Source: Candidatus Galloscillospira stercoripullorum
GTDB taxonomy: Bacteria; Bacillota; Clostridia; Oscillospirales; Oscillospiraceae
Reading direction: 5' to 3'
Assembly (NCBI GenBank): GCA_018715695.1
Contig: DVLB01000009.1
Coordinates: 1 to 32,171 of the forward strand
DNA length: 32,171 nucleotides
The translations under genes were made by a program, and so were the position numbers. Below the pieces are notes generated by a model. That model saw only the letters and a program-made list of their open reading frames with translations, was not told where the DNA came from and made no database searches. The first letter of the stretch is position 1; each line of letters starts with the position of its first letter. This document shows, one piece after another, positions 5,279-8,177 of the stretch.

Positions 5279-6283
5279 TCAGTTGCAGCGGACGATGCAC
5301 GTGGCGGTATTACCAGCGGCATCCTTAGCGGTGATGGTGCAAGTGCCAGCGCCCACCCGGGCGACAGTACCGCCTGCGCTCACCGTAGCCACCGCACTGT
5401 TGCTGGTAGACCAGGTCACGGTGCCGGAAGCCCCGGTAACAGTGATGGTATAGGTGGGCCAGGTCTCATTGAGGGTGAAGTCCTCCCGGCTCAGCGAAAG
5501 GCCCCCGGAGGGCGCCTGCGTAGGCGTGGAAACAGGACCGCTGTCAGAACCGATGGTGGAGTAGACCTTGCAGGTCTGGGAATAGCCGCCGGCCATGGTG
5601 GCGGTGATGACGGCGCTGCCTGGTCCCACGGCGGACACCCGCCCGTTCTGGTCCACGGTGAGGGCACTGGGATTGGAGGAGCTCCAGGTGATCTCCCCAG
5701 TGGTGCCCGCGGGGGAGAAGGTAACCTGGATGGTCACCGGGTCGGGATACTGGCGACTGATGGAGAACTCAGTGTAGCTGAGGGTAAAGCTGGTGGCAGT
5801 CTGCCCGTCCGGGGTGGGCTCGGTGGAGGGCTCAGGCTCCTCGCTCTCCACAGGGTCGGTGGGCTCCGCCGACACGTCGCCGGGATCGGGCGTCTGGGTG
5901 ACCTGCTCCGAAGGATTGGGGTCCACGTTCCCCCGAATGATCCAAGGGCGGATGATGGTAATGACGACGAAGATGGCCGCGGCGATAATAACCAGGGAGA
6001 GCACCGTGCTCACGATTTTTCCTACCGAAGGAGGCCCGCCGTAGCCGCCGCCCCGTCGGTTGCCCAGGCGCTTGCCGCCCTTGCGGCGGACAGGACGTTC
6101 CTCGTACTCGTCCTCCTCATATTCGTCCAGGTCGTCATACTCCTCCTCGCGGCCGCCACCCCGTTCTCTCTCCCGGGCCTCCCAGGCGTCCTCCTCGCAG
6201 AAGGGACAGTGTTTATAGGTAGCGGAGTAGTCTTCTCCGCAGACGTCACAGTGGATCATCTCATTGGCGGATCGTTTGGCCAT
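5279..6283 (-). CDS. Zinc-ribbon, single-TM protein with C-terminal Big2 (Ig-like) repeats
   Basis: CDVCGEDYSATYKHCPFC zinc ribbon, acidic/basic linker, TM segment IVSTVLSLVIIAAAIFVVITII, two Big2-like repeats (VTWSTSNSAVATVSAGGTVARVGAGTCTITAKDAAGNTATCIV). SD GGAGGG upstream of 6283. Confidence 0.8.
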   Translation of the reverse strand: MAKRSANEMIHCDVCGEDYSATYKHCPFCEEDAWEARERERGGGREEEYDDLDEYEEDEYEERPVRRKGGKRLGNRRGGGYGGPPSVGKIVSTVLSLVIIAAAIFVVITIIRPWIIRGNVDPNPSEQVTQTPDPGDVSAEPTDPVESEEPEPSTEPTPDGQTATSFTLSYTEFSISRQYPDPVTIQVTFSPAGTTGEITWSSSNPSALTVDQNGRVSAVGPGSAVITATMAGGYSQTCKVYSTIGSDSGPVSTPTQAPSGGLSLSREDFTLNETWPTYTITVTGASGTVTWSTSNSAVATVSAGGTVARVGAGTCTITAKDAAGNTATCIVRCN

Positions 6284-6363
6284 TGATATCCCTCCTATTG
6301 GCGTTCCTTTCTTTATAACAATGTCGCAATTGATCTGAAAACGGCTGGGATCAGCTCTTTTCA

Positions 6364-6386
6364 AATAAACCGCATGGCGGTTTATT
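6364..6386. repeat. Perfect 10-bp inverted repeat (hairpin) in the leader of the zinc-ribbon/Big2 gene
   Basis: AATAAACCGC-ATG-GCGGTTTATT. Confidence 0.8.
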
Positions 6387-6535
6387 CAGCAGACATTATA
6401 ACATAATAGTACACGCTGCGGCGGAAATCGTCAACCGCAATCGCGAAATTCCGGCGTTATTTTCTCTGTGTTATGTCTACCAAACCTCCTGACTTGATTC
6501 CACCCATGGAATTGGATATAATAATGTCTGCTGAA
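6385..6535. promoter_or_regulatory. Divergent promoter region flanked by a perfect 15-bp inverted repeat
   Basis: TTCAGCAGACATTAT (6385-6399) and its exact reverse complement ATAATGTCTGCTGAA (6521-6535). Plus-strand TTGATT-N17-TATAAT (-10 at 6517-6522). Confidence 0.65.
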
Positions 6536-6719
6536 CAAAGCGGCAAGCGGTCTGTTCCCGCGGTCATAGCCGCGCAATTTTACAAAAGCCGCTAAAAAAG
6601 CGGCTTTCGGTCCAAATTACTCGAAATACTTACTTCTGAACAAAGGGAAGGCCAGGGCTTTCGGCTTTGTCAGGACGCGGTATGATAGCCGGCAGAATAA
6701 ATGGGAGGAGTGGAGGGCC

Positions 6720-8177
6720 ATGAAGGGTTCCATGACCGCTGCCGCGGTACACAAGCAGTATGAGGAGGGCGTGGATGCCTTTCGCCGCCAGATCGGGGAC
6801 AGCGCGCTGCGGGAGCGTTTTGCCCGGGAGGCCGACGTCTTCTTCCGCGCCTGCGCCCTAGGGATCTGGCACAGCGACGGCGGCAGCGTAACGCCCCGGC
6901 ATGTGGAGTACTATAACGCCATCTATCACAAGGGCAACCCCGTCCCCTCCATTTTGTTCTGGGAACTGAGCACCGCTGTGGCCGATTACCCCGGCTTCAC
7001 GCCGCCGGGCTTTTTCACCCGGATGCTGGCCTATGACAAAGTGGTGGGCGGCACTCTCTCCCGCCGCTTTGCCGACCTGATGACCCTGATGCTGCTACTT
7101 TTTGCGGCGGTGGACGACGTGGTCAGCGAGGAAGAGGCCGGCTTTGCCGGCCTCTGCGCGGACGCCCTTATCGGTCTTTGTGAGAAGGAGGGGCTCAGCG
7201 CCGGGAAGCCCCCTCTGGACGTAACGGAATTCGTCACCCGCCGCTCCCCCTCTCCTGAACAGAGCACCGCTCCTGCCGGAGAGAAAAAGGCGGAAGAAAA
7301 GGCAGAGGAAACGGAGGCGGAGGAGAAGGCCCCCAGCCTGGAGGAGCTACTCGCCGAACTGGACAGCCTGTGCGGCCTGGAGAAAGTGAAAAAGGACGTC
7401 AAGAGCCTTATCAACCTGGTAAAGGTGCGCAAACTGCGCCAGGAGGCGGGGCTGCCGGTGCCACCCATGTCCCTGCACCTGGTCTTCATGGGCAATCCGG
7501 GCACCGGCAAGACCACGGTGGCCCGGCTGCTGGCCGGGATCTACCACGCCATCGGGGTGCTGAGCAAAGGCCAGCTCATTGAGGTGGACCGTTCGGGGCT
7601 GGTGGCCGGCTTTGTGGGCCAGACCGCCATCAAGACCGGCGAGGTGATCGACAAAGCTTTGGGGGGCGTGCTGTTCATTGACGAGGCCTACGCCCTGGCA
7701 AATCCCGACTCCCCCAACGACTTCGGCAAAGAGGCCATTGAGACTCTGCTCAAGGCCATGGAGGACCATCGCTCCGATCTCATCGTCATCGTAGCGGGGT
7801 ACACCGAGCTCATGGACCGCTTCATCCACGCAAACCCCGGCCTGGAGAGCCGGTTCAACAAGTACTTTTACTTCGAGGACTATGACGGAGCGCAGCTCAT
7901 GGAGATCTTCCGCTCCCTGTGCCGCAAGAACGGCTACTCCCTCACCGGAGAGGCGGAGGACTACGCCCGGGGCCTGTTTACCCGGCTCTATGAGCAGCGG
8001 GATGAGAACTTCGGCAACGCCCGGGACGTGCGAAACGTCTTTGAGCGCGCCGTGGCCCGCCAGTCCGACCGGGTGGCCGCCCTGGAGAACCCGGACCGGG
8101 ACGCCCTTATGGCCCTCACCCTTCCCGACCTGAAGGAGGAGGAACCTGATGCTGCTCAGCCCTCCGGAGAGCCGTGA
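6720..8177 (+). CDS. AAA+ ATPase of the CbxX/CfxQ (SpoVK-like) family with N-terminal TerB-like helical domain
   Basis: Walker A FMGNPGTGKTTVARLLAGIYHAIGVLSKGQ, Walker B GGVLFIDEAYALA, ESRFNKYFYFEDY; N-terminal segment LLLFAAVDDVVSEEEAGF resembles TerB. Confidence 0.85.
   Translation: MKGSMTAAAVHKQYEEGVDAFRRQIGDSALRERFAREADVFFRACALGIWHSDGGSVTPRHVEYYNAIYHKGNPVPSILFWELSTAVADYPGFTPPGFFTRMLAYDKVVGGTLSRRFADLMTLMLLLFAAVDDVVSEEEAGFAGLCADALIGLCEKEGLSAGKPPLDVTEFVTRRSPSPEQSTAPAGEKKAEEKAEETEAEEKAPSLEELLAELDSLCGLEKVKKDVKSLINLVKVRKLRQEAGLPVPPMSLHLVFMGNPGTGKTTVARLLAGIYHAIGVLSKGQLIEVDRSGLVAGFVGQTAIKTGEVIDKALGGVLFIDEAYALANPDSPNDFGKEAIETLLKAMEDHRSDLIVIVAGYTELMDRFIHANPGLESRFNKYFYFEDYDGAQLMEIFRSLCRKNGYSLTGEAEDYARGLFTRLYEQRDENFGNARDVRNVFERAVARQSDRVAALENPDRDALMALTLPDLKEEEPDAAQPSGEP

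Follow-up and report, generated by a model that had tools for sequence, protein, structure and literature searches.

The window, i.e. the whole stretch of 32,171 bp of Candidatus Galloscillospira stercoripullorum DNA that was analysed, contains a divergently oriented gene pair. On the minus strand, positions 5279–6286 encode a zinc-ribbon protein with a Big_2 domain (Pfam Big_2, 5.7e-18; the zinc ribbon is assigned from CxxC motifs in the sequence), whose ATG is preceded by the ribosome-binding site AGGAGG, and on the plus strand, positions 6720–8177 encode a CbxX-like AAA ATPase (Pfam AAA, 1.4e-18; AAA_lid_6, 2e-19). A predicted promoter of the form TTGATT-N17-TATAAT precedes the AAA gene (6494–6522, plus strand; hexamers at 6494–6499 and 6517–6522), as an earlier note on this DNA had claimed, and one of the form TTGACG-N17-TACTAT precedes the zinc-ribbon/Big2 gene (6406–6434, minus strand; hexamers at 6434–6429 and 6411–6406).

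That note had been drawn to the region by an inverted repeat, and its description of the repeat is accurate: TTCAGCAGACATTAT (6385–6399) is the exact reverse complement of ATAATGTCTGCTGAA (6521–6535), the two 15-bp copies are spaced 121 bp apart, the similarity extends imperfectly outward (41-nt arms with 80% complementarity, 6364–6404 and 6516–6556), and each copy sits at the -10/start position of one of the divergent promoters. The 15-mer occurs in the window at these two sites only, even when up to three mismatches are allowed (0.34 expected). A partial copy, seen at 6636–6645, is likewise real. We find two elements here, copies A and B, and in the second of them the partial copy makes up the last hairpin's 5' arm.

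Copy A (6321–6396, minus strand) is an internally shortened single unit of 76 bp, of the type that we call the X unit, and reads ATGTCTGCTGAATAAACCGCCATGCGGTTTATT...GCGACAT on the minus strand, where it starts 9 bp past the -10 hexamer. It is bracketed by two identical copies of TATAACA (TGTTATA on the minus strand) at 6314–6320 and 6397–6403. Copy B (6524–6680, plus strand) is a degenerate composite of 157 bp, in which an X unit is followed by the last hairpin of a second unit, the Y unit, the internal part being deleted; its ends are decayed, and its right end GGCTTTGTCAGGACGCGG is similar to the Y end GGCTTTGTTCAGTACGCAT. The flanking heptamers of copy B are TATAATA (6517–6523), at the same time the -10 box in the promoter of the AAA gene, and TATGATA (6681–6687), with six of seven bases identical. 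R1, a covariance model built for the X unit, has exactly two matches in the window, namely 6321–6396 on the minus strand (36.6 bits), i.e. exactly copy A, and 6524–6625 on the plus strand (50.4 bits). The note's statement that no target-site duplication is visible hence does not hold; the duplications became apparent once the element ends were set at ATG...CAT, as learned from 95 other copies. With them the feature really covers 6314–6687, beyond the limits of 6385–6535 that had been noted.

As such, the noticed repeat is the X end of copy A and the X-like end of copy B, lying back to back. Judged from the sequence, the inverted repeats are one end each of two outward-facing elements, both of which have a second end and a target duplication of their own, and the DNA enclosed between them belongs to the host, as its divergent promoter region.

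A dispersed, folded element family

When the pattern ATAATGTCTGCTGAAYAAA was searched with up to three mismatches, 22 sites were found in the organism's own 1.88-Mb draft genome and none with the reversed control. Read out, these sites belong to an element of about 255 bp that is scattered through the genome. It has an X end, ATGTCTRCTGAATAA..., as well as a Y end, ATGCGTACTGAACAA..., and its terminal inverted repeats (ATGTCTRCTGAAYAA on one side and ATGCGTACTGAACAA on the opposite side) face inward. A BLAST search of the same genome returned 44 pieces for the full-length copy L004, and family copies neighbour unrelated genes at about 20 genomic sites. Two closely spaced copies, one of them shortened across its middle, also lie in this genome at G000:C52:35467-35957 (L058, L061, L080). 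Among 199 relatives, 56 contain the degenerate pattern, one of them with more than 100 matches; carriers include Flavonifractor, Pseudoflavonifractor, Intestinimonas, Oscillibacter, Candidatus Enterenecus and Candidatus Limivicinus. The R1 model was positive in 46 of 301 family genomes, with copy numbers that are lower bounds, as at most 13 candidates were scored per genome. Genome G003 harbours a divergent subfamily in very high numbers (206 end matches at up to three mismatches, ends ATAATGTCCACTGAACAAA / TTAATGCCTGCTGAACAAT; loci such as L105, L130 and L138), which has other internal hairpins and is missed by the X-unit model.

Between ATG and CAT the elements measure 43–257 bp, which is too short to encode a transposase. 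A single X unit of 101 bp that forms one cloverleaf (L238, about position 6182) is flanked by an exact TATAATA duplication, and a single-hairpin unit of 43 bp (L067, about position 1534) by an exact TATTATA duplication, so that the family is modular and copy A no odd fragment. In columns 104–110 of the alignment A1, a 7-base spacer, mostly TGTTACA, joins the cloverleaf units between CAT and ATG; it resembles a target duplication, as though the composite were two units inserted side by side.

Plasmid and phage collections gave no match to the family, so that there is no sign of its spread on known plasmids or phages. Rfam returned two tRNAs only for the window, with no known RNA family at the elements, and nothing above the gathering score for a full-length copy. 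A search of mostly open-access literature for miniature inverted-repeat transposable elements (MITEs) in Flavonifractor or Oscillospiraceae found no paper. By its short length, terminal inverted repeats, target duplication, dispersed multi-copy occurrence and the ends and duplication form in common with an autonomous element (see below), the family is one of MITEs, and it appears to be a widespread and so far undescribed MITE family of gut Oscillospiraceae.

The predicted fold of a full-length copy (-143.7 kcal/mol vs. -74.5 kcal/mol for shuffled sequences, z -13.7) consists of two adjacent multi-branch (cloverleaf) units with three hairpins each, of which the X unit is closed by AATGTC/GACATT and the Y unit by ATGCGTA/TACGCAT. 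Across the 40 aligned copies of A1, 96.3% of the cells are standard pairs, as compared to 88.7% after shuffling and 33–45% in slid versions, 42 of the 86 pairs have changed on both sides, and doubly changed cells number 259 vs. 70 in the shuffled alignment. The share of doubly compensated pairs grows with divergence, from 0.01 to 0.14, and that of broken pairs remains at about 3–6%. This covariation is a mark of structural constraint in the propagating lineage.

Target duplications and the candidate parent element

An exact 7-bp direct repeat flanks 48 of the 95 elements (mean 12.3, maximum 21 in 1000 shuffles of the right flanks) and an exact 6-bp repeat a further 16 of them (shuffled mean 1.1, maximum 6), which amounts to exact duplications of 6 or 7 bp in 64 of 95. 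Their form is mostly TA-N3-TA or TA-N2-TA; the length thus varies, and it is arguable whether the outer TA belongs to the element or to the target. TATAATA or its complement accounts for 34 of the 49 independent exact 7-bp duplications, although only 130 of the 910 TANNNTA sites (14%) in the DNA around the elements have this sequence (odds ratio 13.6, p 7e-17). As this heptamer is the -10 box of sigma-A promoters, insertions often land on promoters.

The sequence upstream of the duplications points in the same direction. When TTGACA-like hexamers (at least 4 of 6 bases) at spacings of 10 to 25 bp were compared, 40 of 335 independent ends had one exactly 17 bp upstream of the duplication, whereas the other spacings gave 8–18 (about 12). 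Divided by heptamer, this signal is present at 24 of 76 TATAATA ends (32%) and at none of the 40 TATTATA ends, which present the reverse face. Ordinary TATAATA sites, however, have a -35-like hexamer at 17 bp in 48 of 220 cases (22%), and the element ends are not significantly better (p=0.09). Additional promoter recognition beyond TATAATA is hence unsupported, and the association with promoters is explained by the heptamer preference. A literature search on the targeting of Pribnow boxes by IS5-type elements, again of mostly open-access papers, found no report.

A candidate for the source of mobility emerged in genome G067, where a lone family end (L262) pointed the way to a truncated transposase gene with matches to the NCBIfam IS5 model NF033578 (1.6e-97, above cutoff) and to Pfam DUF772. 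Longer homologues in other Oscillospiraceae (74–77% identity to the G067 transposase) belong to elements of 1553–1572 bp with matching ends. In total, IS5-type elements of 1553–1627 bp with the same or similar ends were found at five genome places: L271 carries ATGTCTACTGAACAAT at both ends, a TATATA duplication and a transposase gene with one stop; L270 (TACGTTA duplication) and L272 (TAAATA duplication) have open transposase genes; and L284 and L275 (1627 bp) are more distant relatives with related ends and TATATA and TAATTA duplications. MITEs and insertion sequences overlap in about 16 end bases and the form of the duplication only, with no internal sequence in common. The shared ends and the same unusual duplication form mark this IS5-type lineage as the likely mobiliser, and on these sequence features it very probably mobilised the MITEs in trans. 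A search of the window's own genome (74% complete) did not turn up this transposase, so that mobilisation there is historical or unproven.

Long inward-facing pairs of ends were also sought among the first loci as possible parents, and none was found. A pair of ends 24 kb apart on G067:C29 was considered as one large element and rejected, as one of its ends is interrupted by another insertion sequence with GGGGCTGTCTCATT ends and the other proved to be the truncated IS5-type element through which the parent lineage was traced. The interrupting insertion sequence (L261, about 723–790, G067:C29) lies directly inside a family end; it contains an internal repeat of about 170 bp and a reading frame that resembles a transposase.

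Origin of the locus and competing explanations

From our point of view, it is very likely that two independent, non-autonomous MITE copies, mobilised by an IS5-type element, inserted in opposite orientations between the zinc-ribbon/Big2 and the CbxX-like AAA gene. The two copies would have transposed separately into the intergenic region, with an IS5-type transposase (NF033578) acting in trans by binding the common ends ATGTCTRCTGAAYAA. Such a transposase would cut preferentially at TA-N2/3-TA, best at TATAATA, and leave a 6- or 7-bp direct repeat behind. The duplication preserves the -35/-10 pair and would place the element in the transcribed leader, with copy A following the -10 box of the Big2 gene and copy B duplicating that of the AAA gene. 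Given their location at the two -10 positions, the MITEs would form most of both 5' leaders. The family, its ends and duplications, the candidate parent, the target preference, the position at promoters and the covarying structure can be read from the sequence; what we infer from them is that transposition took place in trans, that transcription runs through the elements and that the folded leader may have an effect on mRNA or expression.

An exact repeat of 15 bp that occupies corresponding -10/start positions in divergent promoters is also what one would expect of a shared operator, as suggested in the earlier note, at which a dimeric regulator would bind both repeats and co-regulate the two genes. 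However, the same sequence forms the end of the 255-bp interspersed repeat at some 20 places beside unrelated genes, and each copy is flanked by its own target duplication. Orthologous loci, to which the note had also pointed, speak against an operator as well: the same divergent gene pair in genomes G043 (L300) and G014 (L304), the two pairs that could be examined, lacks the repeat and any element and yet keeps both promoters in place (TTGACC-N17-TATAAT before the AAA gene in both; TTGACG-N17-TAAGAT in L300 and TTGACG-N17-TATTAT in L304 before the Big2 gene). We consider the operator extremely improbable. The alternative that the note had offered, a mobile element, was right in kind and wrong in anatomy, as the repeats do not delimit a single element that encloses 6400–6520. 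A perfect inverted repeat around promoters does recall invertible promoter elements, but a single mobile cassette or invertible promoter at 6385–6535 that ends in the 15-bp repeats is very unlikely: the ATG...CAT ends of every full-length copy point inward around hairpins, whereas those at this locus point outward, the duplications bracket A and B separately, and BLAST matches elsewhere span the elements and not the intervening DNA. Returning to two separate insertions, the orthologues suggest that the promoters are the host's and that the elements arrived later. This order is based on the absence of the elements and the conservation of the promoters, the intergenic DNA being otherwise too diverged to align; in a base-by-base empty-site alignment with L300 and L304, removal of A and B lowered the score and gave no clear improvement over random removals.

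A further explanation would add to the insertion of two MITEs rather than replace it, namely that the elements are retained because their folded leader has been selected as a regulatory RNA, which would act through stability, RNase III processing or the binding of a ligand or protein, with mobility being secondary. The twin cloverleaf with its z of -13.7 and the strong covariation, in which double compensation grows with divergence and broken pairs stay flat, would fit such a role, as would the orientation of the elements: in full-length copies whose TATAATA or TATTATA duplications are exact, it is the X end that faces the -35 in 24 cases, as compared to 7 cases for the Y end (p=0.003). G-U cells also outnumber A-C cells (80:52), but the difference is weak, and it was the sense strand from which the structure had been derived. 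Furthermore, the same covariation is expected if the structure mattered for the propagating lineage only, and the folds of the window's own copies are decayed (z -4.75 for the closed multi-branch fold of A, -3.17 for B). We therefore regard a selected leader RNA as rather unlikely. Similarly speculative is the broader idea of mobile leaders, in which the -10 box serves as the landing site of an IS5-type system and each insertion supplies a portable, covarying twin-cloverleaf leader that acts as RNA and is under selection, including for its orientation; we would give it a minor chance.

Relation to known elements and significance

Correia elements (CREE/NEMIS) of Neisseria insert at TA, the RUP elements of Streptococcus pneumoniae are linked to IS630 and a TA duplication, and we know of no preference for -10 boxes in RUP or in the BOX elements of the same species. 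MITEs with hairpins near promoters, such as Correia, BOX, RUP and QMITE, are well known (PMC10969869, PMC3049150), and for Correia elements sigma-70-like promoters and RNase III processing have been described (PMC10969869, PMC3049150). The present family resembles Correia in being a short, non-coding, intergenic MITE with terminal inverted repeats that lies near promoters and would form hairpins when transcribed (PMC10969869, PMC3049150). Correia, however, carries its own promoters, whereas here the -10 box of a host promoter serves as the target and becomes duplicated, with 6–7 bp of the form TA-N2/3-TA, and the likely parent is of the IS5 type; the ends also seem unrelated. The modular BOX and the IS-derived RUP elements are likewise MITEs with extensive predicted RNA structure that likely affects co-transcribed genes (PMC3049150), but they differ in modules, ends and target. 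QMITE2 of Coxiella burnetii shares the strongly folded transcript and has direct repeats of 7–9 bp (PMC10969869); it differs in its unrelated host and duplication length, and its description there mentions neither a pair of cloverleafs nor an aim at -10 boxes (PMC10969869). With the IS5-type insertion sequences (NF033578, DUF772), finally, the family shares the end sequence ATGTCTACTGAACAA and the TA-N2/3-TA duplications, whereas those are autonomous, about 1.55 kb long with a transposase gene, and have no internal sequence in common with the MITEs. The family is hence ordinary as a MITE, and unusual in its target and its twin cloverleaf.

Overall, the two insertions account for the puzzling way in which the promoters of this uncultured gut bacterium are arranged here. 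As the preferred site is the -10 consensus, insertion can provide genes with a new leader while their promoters remain intact, a simple route by which a mobile element may alter expression at little harm. The covarying structure could be selected either as leader RNA or as transposing DNA, and it will be possible to test this directly in culturable hosts such as Flavonifractor.
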